Shown here in pieces: positions 1 to 63,338 of a DNA stretch of 64,000 nucleotides; the stretch's first letter is position 1; each line of letters opens with the position of its first letter. The DNA is taken from the NCBI GenBank assembly GCA_030824515.1, contig JAVBXN010000008.1, forward strand, positions 62,001 to 126,000. The letters run 5' to 3'. Origin of the DNA: Pelobacter sp. GTDB taxonomy: Bacteria > Desulfobacterota > Desulfuromonadia > Geobacterales > Pseudopelobacteraceae. The position numbers were made by a program, and so were the translations under genes. The notes under the pieces were generated by a model, which was given only the letters and a program-made list of their open reading frames with translations, was not told the origin of the DNA and did not search any database.

Positions 1-51
1 AACTTTCACTCAAGGCCCTTCTTTGAAGGTTTTTTAGCGGGGTTGTTAAAC
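1..51 (-). repeat. possible partial attC-like hairpin at window edge
   Basis: Read on the minus strand this starts with GTTTAAC (51-45), a match to the attC R'' core RYYYAAC, contains a short stem CCTTC-AAA-GAAGG and reaches GTT at 3-1, where the window ends. The stem is short and the site is cut, so this is the weakest of the attC-like elements here. Between it and the next element (52-138) there is no credible gene, and positions 213-326, up to the first gene, also hold no recognisable coding region. Confidence 0.25.
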
Positions 52-138
52 CCTCCGGGACGGTTATCTTCCCATTCAGCTATGAAGCCATTCACAATAA
101 TGGCTGCAGGGATTAAGATTAGGCAATCCGCAATCTTT

Positions 139-212
139 GGATAACGGTTGTGAGGCACACCGGCTCGGCGGGGGGCTTTTCCCCCGCTGACCGGTGTTGC
201 CGATTGTTGGGC
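139..212 (-). repeat. attC-like (59-be-like) imperfect hairpin 1
   Basis: On the minus strand the element runs from GCCCAAC (212-206, a full RYYYAAC match) to GTTATCC (145-139, only the GTT triplet conserved). The arms pair as ACACCGG/CCGGTGT and GCGGGGG/CCCCCGC around a short loop, and GGC/GCC pairs outside with one unpaired base on the 5' arm. An extrahelical base on that arm is typical of integron attC sites. It lies 114 bases after the stop of the minus-strand gene at 327-866, the order expected for gene then attC. No integrase gene is visible, so the assignment rests on structure only. Confidence 0.42.
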
Positions 213-326
213 GTCATCCTCTGCCGCAAGGTTTCTCCGGTGGCAAACTTTTTCTGCGACTACGCCCGCACCACCGTACTCCTCGGTTTGGCTGGACAGT
301 GACTCCGAATTTCTCCGGATATTTTT

Positions 327-866
327 CTATTTAGCAAGTTCCATGAAGCTAAAGGCATAAGCAGCAAATCCTGAAACTGCCGACATCGTAATTACAACAG
401 ATGTTATCCATTTTGTTTTTATTTCATTGTCTGCTTGTAGTTGGTGCCAATGGCCTACCGCAATAATGCTGCTAGCAATTGCACCTGGAATTGCTCCTAT
501 AATAATGAACAAAATTCTACGAGTTGAAATCGATTCTACTGGCTGGAACAAATAACTGATTTGCAACATTTTCAAAATTGAGGCTATAACGAAGTTAACT
601 AACACGGTTGCAAGAGGCCACACTATACTTGCAATAACGTTAAATCCTACCCACTCTCCCTTTTTGCTGACTAAAGACTGGATAAATAGTAGCTGCATCA
701 GTGAAGCGAAAAAACTTGTCATAGGCAGCACAGCTACCCAGAAAAACAGGTGTTTAGAAGCTATTGGATATATTGCGAAATACGAAACTACTGCTGCTAT
801 TGCTATGGCAATGACGTTAATAATTAGAAATTTTACTGTCGCTAATTTGGTTAGATTTAATTCCAT
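327..866 (-). CDS. hypothetical polytopic membrane protein
   Basis: A 179-residue protein that I do not recognise. It is almost entirely hydrophobic, with about five predicted membrane segments (roughly residues 12-34, 40-65, 73-97, 118-141 and 155-175) and a short soluble loop around 142-153. I chose the ATG at 866 because GGAG lies five bases upstream; an in-frame TTG five codons earlier has no such site. Base composition is clearly more AT-rich than the cell-wall cluster to the right. It sits between two attC-like hairpins, so it may be a captured gene cassette. No function can be assigned. Confidence 0.6.
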   Translation of the reverse strand: MELNLTKLATVKFLIINVIAIAIAAVVSYFAIYPIASKHLFFWVAVLPMTSFFASLMQLLFIQSLVSKKGEWVGFNVIASIVWPLATVLVNFVIASILKMLQISYLFQPVESISTRRILFIIIGAIPGAIASSIIAVGHWHQLQADNEIKTKWITSVVITMSAVSGFAAYAFSFMELAK

Positions 867-875
867 TATTTCTCC

Positions 876-934
876 GGCCAACGGTTGGGGAGAACAGCGG
901 CGGTTTTTAGGCCGCTGCTTCTGCCTGGTTGGAC
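876..934 (-). repeat. attC-like (59-be-like) imperfect hairpin 2
   Basis: This 59-base element reads GTCCAAC (934-928, full RYYYAAC match) to GTTGGCC (882-876, one mismatch to GTTRRRY) on the minus strand; six of seven core positions pair. Inside, CAGCGGC/GCCGCTG pair perfectly around a nine-base loop, flanked by AGAA/TTCT with one extrahelical base on the 5' arm in minus-strand reading. It fills the space between the stop of the gene at 944-2194 and the start of the gene at 327-866. Size, core triplets and the bulge side all agree with an integron attC site, but there is no integrase in view. Confidence 0.5.
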
Positions 935-943
935 ACTCGTCCT

Positions 944-2194
944 TTACTTTTGACTCGTCCTTGATTCCGCCTTACTAGGGTCATCTGTAAAGGTAATATT
1001 GCCTTCTTTATCAACGCTCTTATAGATTCCAGTTTCAGGACGTTTTGGTTGTAAATAGTTAGTTTTTGTAGGTGGTACAACAGGTTTTGTCTCTGTCTTG
1101 TCAATAATTGGTACTGTTTTAAGATAGTAATCCGAAGAGCCATCATAAATTCCATTTTGTTTTTTATACAAGGCATCACCAGTAATCATCACACCACCAC
1201 AATCAGGACAGACAAATTCAGTTGAGTTTTTCGGAGGCTTCGTAAGCAGGACTTTAGAGCATTTACTGCATCCATAATATTTGTTTGGGGTAACATACCA
1301 CTCTCTGTATTTTTGGTTCATGAGAACAGAAAACGGCTCATGATGCGGGTCGTCAGTAGTGTTTATTATTCCCAACCCTTCTGGATTATCAATTTCACCC
1401 CCAGACCAGTACGGGATTTCAGCCACCTTACCATTTGCCCGTATTATTCGGTCGTTGAATCGATCTCGTATAAATATTACCGGCTTCCCCCATGGATCGA
1501 TAATTTTGTCTTTTTTTACCTTGGCACCAAACTCCAGTATTTTTTTATGATTTGTGTCAACGTATTCAGCAAAGCCGTCTACGGTAATCTCGCAATCTGA
1601 ACCAACGTAATGAAATTTCTCCGGTGAAATTTTATAGTATGCATCTAATGCTTTAGCCATTTCGGTTTTGAATCTGTTGTTGGCTTCAATTTTGTCCATT
1701 TTTTTAAAGAAGGATTTGTCGTAGGCATGACTGGGATTATAAAGGCTGTAGGCAATCATGGGGGTGCATAAAAAGATAGGAAATATATATTTAAAGACTT
1801 GTCTGGTCGTTATAGCCTTTGCGACCAAAACCAAAAACACAATGGCGGTTACCAGAATTGTAGGGACGTATAGAATGGATACTAAAAATTCCAGGCTGTT
1901 TGGCCAACCTGGTGAATGCCTTGTGTTGTTGGCTACCGCTACGAAAAACAAGCTGTAAATGCTTATGGCATACATCAGCGCCAACTTCAGCAATCCTCCT
2001 GAACTACTGCCCATGTTGATGTTATTGTGTACAGGAGTCAGAATTTTTTCTGTTTCTTTTTCGGGCGTAATACCTTCTTTCCAAATATCGAATTTATGCC
2101 CACATTTATGGCATGTCGCGAACTTCACCTGTAACGGAATATGTTTTATGCTGCTAACACCACAAGAGGGGCATGTGATTTTTGATAAGGACAT
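944..2194 (-). CDS. zinc-ribbon membrane protein with DUF4124-like tail
   Basis: A 416-residue protein of unknown function. The N-terminus is a zinc ribbon (Cys8, Cys11, Cys28, Cys31), followed by about three membrane segments between residues 66 and 152. The large remaining part contains a segment with DPWGKPVIF, which resembles the C-terminal fold of major pseudopilins, then a second CxxC...CxxC ribbon near 305-335. The last 25 residues (GIYKSVDKEGNITFTDDPSK) look like a DUF4124-type motif. The start ATG at 2194 has only a weak AGAG upstream. Base composition is AT-rich like the gene at 327-866, and attC-like ends flank it, so capture as a cassette is plausible. What it does is unknown. Confidence 0.62.
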   Translation of the reverse strand: MSLSKITCPSCGVSSIKHIPLQVKFATCHKCGHKFDIWKEGITPEKETEKILTPVHNNINMGSSSGGLLKLALMYAISIYSLFFVAVANNTRHSPGWPNSLEFLVSILYVPTILVTAIVFLVLVAKAITTRQVFKYIFPIFLCTPMIAYSLYNPSHAYDKSFFKKMDKIEANNRFKTEMAKALDAYYKISPEKFHYVGSDCEITVDGFAEYVDTNHKKILEFGAKVKKDKIIDPWGKPVIFIRDRFNDRIIRANGKVAEIPYWSGGEIDNPEGLGIINTTDDPHHEPFSVLMNQKYREWYVTPNKYYGCSKCSKVLLTKPPKNSTEFVCPDCGGVMITGDALYKKQNGIYDGSSDYYLKTVPIIDKTETKPVVPPTKTNYLQPKRPETGIYKSVDKEGNITFTDDPSKAESRTSQK

Positions 2195-2213
2195 TACTTT
2201 GTCTCTTTTCTTG

Positions 2214-2263
2214 GTTCAACATATTATTCACCGGTTCACGCGCACGCGCGCGTGAACCGGTGA
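2214..2263 (-). repeat. perfect inverted repeat with attC-type core next to it
   Basis: TCACCGGTTCACGCGC at 2228-2243 is repeated in perfect inversion at 2248-2263 around a four-base loop. Seven bases further on the minus strand is GTTGAAC (2220-2214), a full match to the attC/attI core GTTRRRY, which lies 19 bases before the start of the gene at 944-2194. No clear RYYYAAC was found on the other side and no T-run follows the hairpin. It may be the upstream boundary of the cassette-like block or only a transcription-attenuating hairpin after the aminotransferase gene. Confidence 0.4.
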
Positions 2264-2363
2264 TCTTCCCAAATGGAACATTTATCCGGCGTACTTGTCA
2301 GAGCTACTTGGGATCAACTACGCCGTCCGCACTTCCAGCCGTAACCACTCAATCTTCTCAAAA

Positions 2364-3536
2364 TCACACCGCCAGTTCCCGGAAACGCCGCACCGCCTCG
2401 GGGATGGTCTCCTCGCGGATATTGCCGAAGGCCAGCCGCAGATACCCCTCCAGGCCGGCGCCGAAGACTTCACCCGGCAGGCAGATGATGCCGGCCCAGT
2501 CCACCAGGCGTTTGGCTGCTTCGCGGCCGCTGCAGCCGTCGAAGGGATGCCTGACCCAGGCGAAGAAGGCGCCGCTGGACGAGAGGTGGAAGCGGTTGCC
2601 CGGCTTCATGAATTCGGCCCGGAACAGGTCGTGGCGGCGGGCCATCATCTCGCGGTTGGCCGCCACCCAGCCATCCAGGTTTTCGACCCCGAATTTGACG
2701 GCGTGCTGGGTGATGCGCGGCTGGCAGACCGCCATCGTGTCCTGCGCCTTGAGGGCGTGGTGGATAAAACCTTCGGAAGCGGCCAGCAGGCCGGCGCGGT
2801 AACCGGTTAGGGCGTAGGTCTTGCCGAACGAGGCGATATGCACGAGGTTTCCGCCCCAGTCCGGGTCGCTGAACAGCTCGTGCGGACGGCTGCCGCCGGG
2901 GATGAACTCGTTGTAGGTTTCATCCAGCACCAGCGCGATATCGTGACGCCGGGCCACCTCCAGAAGCTCGCCGATCACCGCCGGCGGCGTGATGGCGCCG
3001 GTCGGGTTGCTGGGGGAGACCAGCAGGATCGCCCTGGTTCTGTCCGTGATCAGCGACTCGATCGTGGCCGGGGAAGGCAGCCCGCCGTCGGCTTCGACAA
3101 AAGGTGCGCAGACGCCGCGGATGCCGAGCATGTCCAGCACCATCGGGTGGTCGAAGTAGCAGGGCGCCTGCAGCACGACCTCGTCACCGGCGCGGCAGAG
3201 GGTCACTATCGCCAGCCAGAAGGCCTGACTGGCGCCGATTGTCAGGCAGAGATTGGCAGGCGACAGCCGGGCGCCGTATTTGCGCTGGTAATAACCGCAA
3301 ATTGCCTCGCGCACTTCGGGCAACCCCTCATCCGGCGAGTATTTGGAAAGGAGCGGGTCAGGCAGCAGCCCGGACAGGTGATCCGTAAGCCCGGGGGCAG
3401 GGGCGTAATCCGGCACCGCCTGACACAGGTCGATCAGTTCCGGACCGTCGGCGGGACGCGTTGCGACCCAGTTTTTTACCTCGGAAATCGGTGGAAAATG
3501 GACCGCGGTTATCAGCGGTGAAAGCACCATGCTCAT
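2364..3536 (-). CDS. class I/II PLP-dependent aminotransferase
   Basis: A 390-residue fold-type I aminotransferase of the aspartate-aminotransferase superfamily. Visible family marks are SPSNPTGAI, the cofactor Asp in LVLDETYNEF, and the Schiff-base motif SFGKTYALTGYRAG with Lys239. The substrate cannot be named from sequence; close relatives act on aspartate, aromatic amino acids or 2-oxo acids. The ATG at 3536 has GGAG six bases upstream. It is transcribed away from the division cluster and stands alone; the inverted repeat at 2228-2263 lies downstream and may slow read-through. Confidence 0.85.
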   Translation of the reverse strand: MSMVLSPLITAVHFPPISEVKNWVATRPADGPELIDLCQAVPDYAPAPGLTDHLSGLLPDPLLSKYSPDEGLPEVREAICGYYQRKYGARLSPANLCLTIGASQAFWLAIVTLCRAGDEVVLQAPCYFDHPMVLDMLGIRGVCAPFVEADGGLPSPATIESLITDRTRAILLVSPSNPTGAITPPAVIGELLEVARRHDIALVLDETYNEFIPGGSRPHELFSDPDWGGNLVHIASFGKTYALTGYRAGLLAASEGFIHHALKAQDTMAVCQPRITQHAVKFGVENLDGWVAANREMMARRHDLFRAEFMKPGNRFHLSSSGAFFAWVRHPFDGCSGREAAKRLVDWAGIICLPGEVFGAGLEGYLRLAFGNIREETIPEAVRRFRELAV

Positions 3537-3713: not shown

Positions 3714-4190
3714 ATGTTCAGGGGAATATTCGAAACGACCATAGACGCCAAGGGGCGTACCAGCCTGCCGGCCAGGTTTCGGGAAGTCATGCTCGAAAAG
3801 CATGGCGACGAGCGTTTCTTCCTGACCAACTCGGTCCCGGTGGATCTGGGCGGCGGCATTTACAGCTCCGGCCTGCTGATATTCCCATACAACGAGTGGT
3901 TCGTCTTCGAAGAGAATTTCCGCGTCAGCAAGGGCTTTACCTCCGAACAACGCAAGAGCATCCTGCGCACGATCATTTCGCCGGCGCAGGAGTGCAGCGC
4001 CGACAAACTGGGACGCTTTCTGATTCCGCCCACATTCCGCAAAAGCGCCGCGCTCGACCGCGAAGTCCAGTTCGTCGGCACCATGGACAAAATCGAAATC
4101 TGGAGCATGGCCGAGTGGGACAAGGTCCGCGCCCAGGATGTCAAGAACTTCCCCAGCGGCACTGAAGCCGCCGCCGAACTGGGACTGTAA
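3714..4190 (+). CDS. mraZ: transcriptional regulator MraZ
   Basis: A 158-residue member of the MraZ family, a ring-forming DNA-binding protein with two AbrB-like halves. The sequence has the usual opening MFRG, followed by [13 protein letters not shown] in the first half and [10 protein letters not shown] in the second; these DxxGR loops contact DNA. I chose the ATG at 3714 because the family starts MFRG; an in-frame GTG at 3687 would add nine residues but lies in the operator. A GAGAAGG sequence precedes the ATG, with tight spacing. It is the first gene of the division cluster, its stop overlaps the rsmH start (TAATG), and it is probably autoregulated through the box at 3667-3691. Confidence 0.93.
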
Positions 4191-5125
4191 TGTCCGACTT
4201 CCGCCACCTGTCGGTGATGCCGGAGGAAGTGATCCGCTTCCTGGCGCCGGGTGACTCCAAAACCTACCTGGATGGGACCCTGGGGGGCGGCGGCCACAGC
4301 CTGCTGATCCTTGAAAACGCTCCCAATGCCCTGCTGGTCGGCATCGACCGCGACCAGGCCGCGCTGGCGGCAGCCGGAAAACGGCTGGCAGCATTCGGAG
4401 ACCGTTTCCGGCCGGTGCATGGCGATTTTGCCGGCCTGGCCGGTCACCTGGAGGCACTGGGCATATCGGCGCTGGACGGCTTCATCCTCGATCTGGGTGT
4501 TTCCTCACACCAGCTGGACACGGGCCAGCGCGGCTTCAGCTTCCAGCAGGACGCGCCGCTGGATATGCGCATGGACACCAGTCGCGGCGAAACCGCCGCC
4601 GACCTGCTCAACGACCTGCCGGAGCAGGAACTGGAACGGATCATCGGCGAATACGGCGAGGAACGCTGGGCCAGGCGGATCGCCGCCTTCATCATCAACG
4701 CCCGGAACGAGTCGCCGATCACCACCACCTTCCAACTGGTGGACATCATCAAAGGTGCAGTGCCGAAGGCCAAGTGGGACGAGCGCATCCACCCGGCCAC
4801 CCGCACTTTCCAGGGCCTTCGGATTGCGGTCAATCACGAGCTGGAAAGCCTGGAACGCGGGATGCGCGCCGCGCTGGACCTGCTCAAGCCGGGCGGACGG
4901 GGCGTGATCATATCGTTTCACTCACTGGAAGACCGCATCGTCAAGCACATCTTCCGCGAATACGCCGAAGGATGCACCTGCCCGCGTCAACTGCCGCTCT
5001 GCGTATGCGGCAAACAGCCGCGGGTAAAGGTTCTGACCGGTCGTCCGGTCACCGCCACACAGCAGGAAACGGACGAGAATCCACGGGCACGCAGCGCCAA
5101 GCTGCGGGCCATTGAAAAGTTGTAA
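4190..5125 (+). CDS. rsmH: 16S rRNA (cytosine1402-N4)-methyltransferase RsmH
   Basis: A 311-residue SAM-dependent methyltransferase (formerly MraW) that methylates N4 of C1402 in the 16S rRNA decoding centre. The SAM-binding motif [10 protein letters not shown] is at residues 28-37, and the family blocks [12 protein letters not shown] and [15 protein letters not shown] are intact, as is the Cys-containing segment near the C-terminus ([14 protein letters not shown]). The start ATG overlaps the mraZ stop by one base, so translation is probably coupled. mraZ-rsmH-ftsL is the conserved head of dcw clusters. Confidence 0.96.
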
Positions 5126-62724: not shown

Positions 62725-63056
62725 CGATTCTTATCGGCAAACCAGTGTTGTAGTTTGGCGGTAAACAGGAAAGATGGCCTATTGGCCGCCTTTTGAGTTG
62801 TGTTGAAAATATATCTGTCCGTATTCGTGTCAGAGGCTGGTTTTTGACCGTAAAATCGAGGCTCCAAGGCTGAAAACGGGGGCAACAATTTCTATTTAAT
62901 TGCTATATTTAAAGCAGTTAGCCTGGTCCGGCCCCGGAATTCTATCCCAATGAATGCTCTTCAACGACTACCTTGCGGCCATCGAAGATCCATTCGGCTG
63001 TATGACAATTGACATCTATTTTCATTTATTCCTATTTGCGACCAACGGTTCCAGCA
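62725..63056. other. 332-bp region without a gene
   Basis: No coding region can be supported. Just after the protease gene, GGCGG (62757) and CCGCC (62791) with following TTTT could form a weak terminator with a nested GGCC-TATT-GGCC. The rest is AT-richer sequence with no repeat or motif that I recognise. Confidence 0.5.
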
Positions 63057-63338
63057 CTAACCGGCGCGAAGTTTTTTAGCGCGTCCGGTTGAGTGCGTTG
63101 TTCGCTGCTCTGTCTGCACATCCGCATAGGAATCCAACAATTGCCGGATCATTCGCTGATATTGCGTATGATATTTTGATGCCTCAGCTTTGAAGAACTC
63201 AACGCTCTTCTTGCTGAGGGATATCGTCACCTTGACCGATTCCTCGCTGAAAGCCAGTTCGGCAGGAGAAGGGAGAAAATCTCGTATAATCTTGATCTCA
63301 CCCAATGGTTCATCGGTGTATTTTATTTTCGTGCTCAT
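63057..63338 (-). CDS. brnA: BrnA-type antitoxin (ribbon-helix-helix)
   Basis: A 93-residue protein. The central ESVKVTISLSKKSVEFFKAEASKYHTQYQRMIRQLLDSYA is a strand-helix-helix DNA-binding domain of the BrnA/CopG type. The basic tail (TGRAKKLRAG) may help DNA binding. I use the ATG at 63338, preceded by GGAAAGG. It overlaps the end of brnT by 29 bases; toxin first, antitoxin second is the usual order in brnTA operons. Confidence 0.88.
   Translation of the reverse strand: MSTKIKYTDEPLGEIKIIRDFLPSPAELAFSEESVKVTISLSKKSVEFFKAEASKYHTQYQRMIRQLLDSYADVQTEQRTTHSTGRAKKLRAG

Follow-up and report, generated by a model that had tools for sequence, protein, structure and literature searches.

The window, by which we mean the whole stretch of 64,000 nucleotides analysed here (C16:62001-126000), belongs to a genome of 4.65 Mb in 62 contigs that is 100% complete and whose nearest relatives are Geobacteraceae MAGs, among them GWC2_55_20 (G021). 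Throughout the text, G000 denotes the window's own genome, other G numbers its relatives, L numbers sequence loci and C numbers contigs, and HGR is our label for the 74-nt hairpin repeat that leads the array. Namely, at one edge of the window the features follow one another in the order HGR, cassette 1, attC1, cassette 2, attC2, a brnTA cassette and attC3, after which comes glgP (Table 1). The array is inserted between glgP and a class I/II aminotransferase gene, which forms a conserved 5' flank and is found in 51 of 58 relatives. Since the two host genes lie approximately 120-150 bp apart in several relatives, the insertion is the derived state; other inserts at this junction in relatives are mostly not cassette arrays. 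Between the aminotransferase gene and HGR, at approximately 2312-2363, a PIN-domain (VapC-like) gene has left a piece of its 3' end (2181-2588 in L048); in G021, the gene is open. The window contains no tRNA as an insertion site, and an Rfam search of it gave no match.

Table 1. Features of the array, its host flank and the second array. Positions are those of the window unless a locus is named; R1 is a home-made covariance model for attC and its E-values are rough.
Feature	Position	Strand	Remarks
HGR	2214..2287	-	74-nt repeat, orphan attI-like; crossover G^TT between 2220 and 2219
HGR stem-loop	2228..2263	-	GC-rich arms 2263-2248 and 2243-2228
Cassette 1	882..2219	-	from the TT after the G of HGR to the G of attC1; G^TT at both ends
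Cassette 1 gene	944..2194	-	416 aa
attC1	876..934	-	59 nt; GTCCAAC...GTTGGCC; R1 match at 933-876, E 3.5e-11
Cassette 2	145..881	-	between G^TT of attC1 and G^TT of attC2
Cassette 2 gene	327..866	-	179 aa, hydrophobic
attC2	139..212	-	74 nt; GCCCAAC...GTTATCC; R1 match at 212-139, E 9e-13
Cassette 3 start	1..144	-	brnT-brnA leader; runs beyond the window to attC3
attC3	L010 19378-19313		just outside the window, left; weaker, R1 23.7 bits, E 6e-4
Host aminotransferase, class I/II	2364..3536	-	Pfam E 2.5e-45; 77 bp upstream of HGR, co-directional
attC of second array	63040..63106	-	R1 35.1 bits, E 1.8e-7; not listed in the initial annotation

Cassette 1 encodes a protein with a CxxC zinc-ribbon-like N-terminus, an internal zinc-ribbon-like motif and hydrophobic stretches, of which no homologue is present in 140 other genomes of the order. 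The cassette 2 protein has a single homologue (36%), encoded in G057 at a locus with two attC (L240), and a search for it in viral contigs found none. Neither protein meets any family of Pfam or NCBIfam, and, judging from their hydrophobic stretches, it is plausible that both cargo genes encode membrane proteins, as had been proposed. Cassette 3, in turn, carries BrnT (Pfam E 1e-23) together with a brnA-like frame.

attC sites of the array

The attC sites were identified with R1, a covariance model made from 25 attC adjoining full intI genes in sister species, the sites of the window being left out; the training hairpins come from arrays beside intI, and in the genus 17 of 39 genomes have a TIGR02249 match above the cut-off. 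The initial annotation had described two minus-strand hairpins that start with RYYYAAC, end with GTT and each stand behind an open reading frame (ORF), and had named a search with an attC covariance model as a check. Both hairpins are confirmed, at 934-876 and 212-139, the former being exactly 59 bases long as stated, and they give strong matches to R1 (48.3 and 54.0 bits, respectively) rather than none. What is more, folded as single-stranded DNA, both do better than 200 of 200 shuffles, with z-scores of -3.3 (934-876) and -4.2 (212-139). They have the RYYYAAC...GTTRRRY ends and the hairpin with an extrahelical base that characterize attC, with GTTGGCC and GTTATCC as imperfect forms of GTTRRRY. 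A close sequence relative of attC1 lies beside an intI locus in L108, and hairpins closely similar to attC2 are found in the intI-linked arrays L094, L097, L100 and L111. A further GTTTAAC, noted at 51-45, is indeed present but has no attC hairpin and sits in the leader of cassette 3.

There is no intI in the window or in the 40 kb upstream of it, and the intI adjacent to attI that defines a complete integron is not found here. The array at the window edge is, in other words, a cassette array without an integrase (CALIN) with ordinary attC sites: a CALIN has two or more attC of the same orientation without a neighbouring intI, and here there are three. The central claim of the initial annotation, an integron-like cassette array without a visible integrase, is thereby supported.

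A second array stands at the right end of the window and in L233 (1541-4075), with four attC of 22-43 bits, three of them in L233. Its apparent leader, GGACTCCGGATTCCGGGGAATAACAGTTGAAA (L233 approximately 4535-4500), resembles a short-stem attI by eye and scores below the threshold of the core matrix described further on.

The repeat that leads the array

HGR has the layout GGATAAATGTTCCATTTGGG-AAGAT-(stem-loop)-GAATAATAT-GTTGAAC, with the terminal GTTGAAC at 2220-2214. This motif upstream of the first gene had been noted before, and it is there, but it is not the end of an attC; it is the 3' end of HGR. Namely, what escaped the initial annotation is that GTTGAAC belongs to an attI-like repeat, and that the repeat marks the point of insertion. 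Over 24 copies, pairing in the outer 12 pairs of the stem amounts to 92.7%, 14 cells show changes in both partners and none of 500 shuffles reaches the same value, in a test that is lenient since the copies are related.

One might ask whether HGR is simply an unusual attC of the gene upstream of it, with the host gene itself being an old cassette. Like an attC, it is a hairpin ending in GTT, yet it has no 5' RYYYAAC box and its copies are approximately 80% conserved per column, which is unlike attC. In addition, the upstream flank differs between paralogous copies, and here this flank, with its aminotransferase gene, is widely conserved chromosomal DNA. We therefore give this explanation next to no credence. 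As a conventional attC, HGR is ruled out by the missing R'' box.

Approximately 11 full copies of HGR are present in G000 and 13 in G021. By BLAST, the repeat is found in 31 of 39 genomes of the genus. The covariance model finds it in 24 of the 29 genera of the order, 96 of its 141 genomes having a match; among genomes of other orders of the phylum it was found in none of 289, versus 7 of 8 inside the order. A pattern scan of 84,980 species returned 59 stretches, nearly all from Geobacter and its relatives, including Geobacter argillaceus, Trichlorobacter thiogenes and Geotalea toluenoxydans, and the pattern did not occur in viral contigs. The ORF preceding HGR lies a median of 76 bp away and shares its strand in 32 of 41 cases; downstream, the next ORF begins within approximately 150 bp, and 39 of 42 such ORFs are co-directional.

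One would also see GC-rich hairpins scattered behind genes if HGR were a REP-like hairpin or a terminator, mobilized by a transposase of the Y1 (RAYT) type, with the cassettes making use of a convenient hairpin. Genes of this kind do occur at or near cassette loci: L048 contains a Y1 transposase (3917-4876; PF01797, E 9.6e-12), and Y1-like frames, recognized by eye, lie in the cargo of L049 (2-310) and in L014 (9720-9783). That said, most of the cargo seen is not RAYT, and HGR lies on the strand of the cassettes, has an attI core at its end and carries GTTRRRY-type ends in nearly all of its copies. The same core is, moreover, common to attI sites without the long hairpin, and we hold a REP-like origin to be very improbable.

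Two sites deserve mention in their own right. In G005 (C17, L236, near oriented position 552), an orthologous HGR lacks the hairpin, with GGATAAATGTTC followed directly by TACGAGTTGGAA, and a different sequence still stands behind it. In L177 (3341-3444), an HGR-like site of 48 bits has an attC downstream and an IntI-like fragment upstream; the source is a MAG labelled Desulfomonile, which is either outside the order or contains a mis-binned contig.

Breakpoints and association with attC

In integrons, the integrase IntI inserts a cassette by recombination between the folded attC and attI, the point of insertion being G^TT. At the window locus, G000, G021, G024 and G001 have HGR in common and diverge straight after GTT into four different cargoes, the ends of the repeat being GTTGAAC, GTTAGAC, GTTGGAG and GTTGGAA, respectively; in G001, the 5' flank of HGR is different too, although the intergenic region is the same. 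In six further orthologous pairs from G000 and G021, there are 79-96 identities in approximately 100 bases before GTT, and the 100 bases after it are unrelated. Between these two genomes, then, homology ends at GTT with different cargo in 7 of 7 loci. For L134 and L146 the other border can be seen as well: homology returns exactly at the TT behind the G in the attC that belongs to the L146 cassette. Going by these alignments, the breaks at GTT and the right border between L134 and L146 are the footprint that would be expected of cassette insertion at G^TT. Cassettes that begin between G and TT of a conserved core with a constant upstream side, the pattern of an attI, are seen at HGR in the four species at this locus and in the six further pairs. 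The initial annotation had proposed comparing related strains at the GTT triplets, naming different flanks without a break there as the outcome that would speak against it; the break is exactly at the core triplet. Empty HGR sites were sought at two loci, both of which have other inserts and no footprint.

The association of HGR with attC can be put in numbers. At the 59 public HGR loci, R1 finds 51 attC, of which 49 lie downstream of HGR on the same strand at a median of 1.1 kb, where some of the loci come from genomes used for the HGR alignment and R1 was trained without reference to HGRs. Among HGRs with 2 kb of adjoining sequence available, 26 of 41 have an attC within that distance downstream, as compared with 1 of 46 upstream. 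In six whole genomes, 25 of 116 attC (among the matches listed) lie at most 5 kb behind an HGR, where approximately 0.4 would be expected, and none was found upstream of an HGR or on the opposite strand. Counted from the repeat, 18 of 37 HGRs in these genomes have an attC at most 5 kb behind them (none of 4 in G031). Contig ends, decay or cargo of another kind, for instance the insert with the Y1 transposase in L048, leave roughly a third to a half of HGRs with no attC in reach.

These data also bear on off-target insertion, in which cassettes would enter at arbitrary genomic GTT, at attG or other secondary sites, with the repeat being incidental. IntI can use attG (Loot et al. 2024, as cited in PMC12444791) and secondary sites of the GNT type, according to the account in PMC10127599. 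As presented in PMC12444791, attG sites share with HGR that they are chromosomal, receive cassettes and lie away from intI, but they are divergent from classical att sites and broadly scattered, whereas HGR is conserved, has an attI core and is re-used across species. HGR is not, in other words, a non-classical site without attI or attC consensus. In E. coli, attG insertions are broadly distributed over many loci (PMC12444791). Here, on the other hand, the cassettes begin at a conserved repeat of 74 nt that has the core of attI, the same site is re-used in all orthologous loci compared, and the enrichment of attC behind HGRs argues against this explanation as well. The probability that we assign to it is very small.

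Likeness of HGR to attI

The intI loci beside the arrays L094 and L095 are almost identical, and the two arrays part at AAATACGA^GTT, so that a real attI of the genus is located independently of HGR. This attI, GGAAGATGACCGTATTCCGGTCAAATACGA^GTT, and that of L111, GGATGGCCGGAATTCCGGTGAATAACGA^GTT, have the layout of HGR with a shorter stem, and the HGR core, TSAAYAACGA^GTTRRRY, matches the intI-linked attI of the genus. When the HGR covariance model was run on 208 kb of intI and array loci, 4 of the 5 best matches were the genus attI, individually weak at E-values (rough, as above) of 0.09-0.9. In addition, we built a 24-nt core matrix from the HGR cores (consensus GAACCGGTCAATAACGA^GTTGGAC; threshold 14 bits). 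This threshold is reached at nine attI sites linked to intI and at seven leaders of orphan arrays that lack HGR, as compared with no site in 353 kb of host DNA.

Orphan leaders of other kinds point in the same direction. Two orphan array leaders of G015 are 81-92% identical to its intI-linked attI (L093), the similarity ending at GTT; the orphan leader on C62 of G000 is 79% identical to the G015 attI over approximately 200 bp; and in G005 an orphan leader copies another attI type at 71%. The orphan arrays without HGR are headed, in other words, by copies of attI sites of different types. Short tandem iterons preceding the core characterize two other attI types, which occur both beside intI and as orphan leaders (L093, L248, L249 and L246; L102, L110, L230, L250, L252 and L254).

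HGR shares with the attI of an integron the GTTRRRY core with an upstream box, insertion at G^TT and conservation of the upstream side only, and its core AATAAGATGTTRRR resembles the attI2 core AATAAAATGTTRRRY quoted in PMC12901181. It differs in having no adjoining intI, many copies per genome and an enlarged hairpin, and the likeness is limited to the core and the short stem. As the attI of any intI locus examined, HGR was rejected: none of these loci has HGR as its own attI, and the matches extend over the core, with no full-length match. Because it is not adjacent to intI, we call it attI-like.

The integrase

In G000, no IntI match exceeds the family cut-off, and there is only a fragment on C55; full-length IntI is also absent from G021, the closest near-complete relative. 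The fragment (107 aa) lies in an array region of its own (L014 6731-7054 and 7424-8118), which includes a large palindrome (GTTCAACTTGACTTTATG...) that is also present in L064 and L100. A search for IntI remnants at HGR loci and orphan arrays found none except in L177.

The IntI proteins of this group (L092-L111, L230-L232) are approximately 455-505 aa long, with an extra N-terminal part of approximately 160 aa; that of L094 matches Phage_int_SAM_4 just over the cut-off. In many loci, a divergent partner gene (MKTRLxLKPGQKGTK..., no Pfam match) lies between intI and attI. A standard-length IntI of genus g15 was considered as an obvious partner of HGR and rejected, as its attI differs.

Could the arrays behind HGRs be ordinary CALINs that arose by loss, each being an integron remnant from which intI was deleted, with HGR as the old attI? 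The loss of intI is, together with off-target insertion and rearrangement, among the routes to CALINs listed in PMC8618304, the HGR core is common to real attI sites, and a fragment of IntI is kept on C55. However, with approximately 11-13 HGRs per genome (G000, G021), an equal number of independent integrons would be required, the HGRs have no IntI remnant beside them and no intI was seen adjoining one, and upstream of HGR there is usually an ORF approximately 76 bp away. On balance, we regard this explanation as unlikely.

Discussion

We consider it quite probable, from the sequence comparisons described above, that HGR is a dispersed orphan attI-like site and that the array was built there by IntI-type recombination. 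Namely, circular cassettes would enter HGR, which follows the aminotransferase gene and has no neighbouring intI, and an integrase encoded elsewhere would insert and remove them at G^TT in trans. In this lineage, that integrase is probably the N-terminally extended IntI or one that was acquired transiently; indeed, as neither G000 nor G021 has a full IntI and their cassette content differs, a recent loss or a transient source must be assumed. HGRs would be one family among several dispersed attI-like sites in the order, consisting of a hairpin and the simple-site core given above, and the hairpin may matter for recognition. What is more, since HGR lies close behind an ORF and the first downstream ORF is near and co-directional, the first cassette could owe its expression to read-through from the host gene before it.

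A wider reading is that bacteria of the Geobacterales type have a distributed integron, in which attI families are copied round the chromosome and an integrase in trans swaps cassettes, allowing genome-wide capture. We lean slightly towards this view, and, with the same slight preference, towards the part of it according to which the dispersed attI sites lie mostly behind host genes.

A dispersed orphan attI-like repeat as the leader of an array is a new form of integron attachment site. In the open-access literature, which does not include subscription papers, we found no description of an orphan or dispersed attI. The array shares with CALINs (PMC9024848, PMC8618304) two or more attC, co-directional ORFs and the lack of a nearby intI, but its start is an attI-like site that is both conserved and repeated, a route that PMC8618304 does not list. 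With the cassettes of the Delta-attI type (PMC12901181), it shares a partial attI away from the attI locus; there, however, Delta-attI replaces attC at the 3' end of a cassette in mobile integrons, whereas HGRs lead chromosomal arrays. Outside class 1, attI is poorly described (PMC9024848), and for this reason IntegronFinder misses dispersed orphan attI sites.

For the origin of integrase-less arrays, a dispersed orphan attI is a further, testable route. HGR also makes it simple to look for cassettes in bacteria of groundwater and sediment. If IntI acts in trans, a single integrase can bring diversity to ten or more loci of the chromosome, each of them read together with a different host gene. 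Scattered landing sites, approximately ten per genome across the order, would in this way let one integron load many places of the chromosome.
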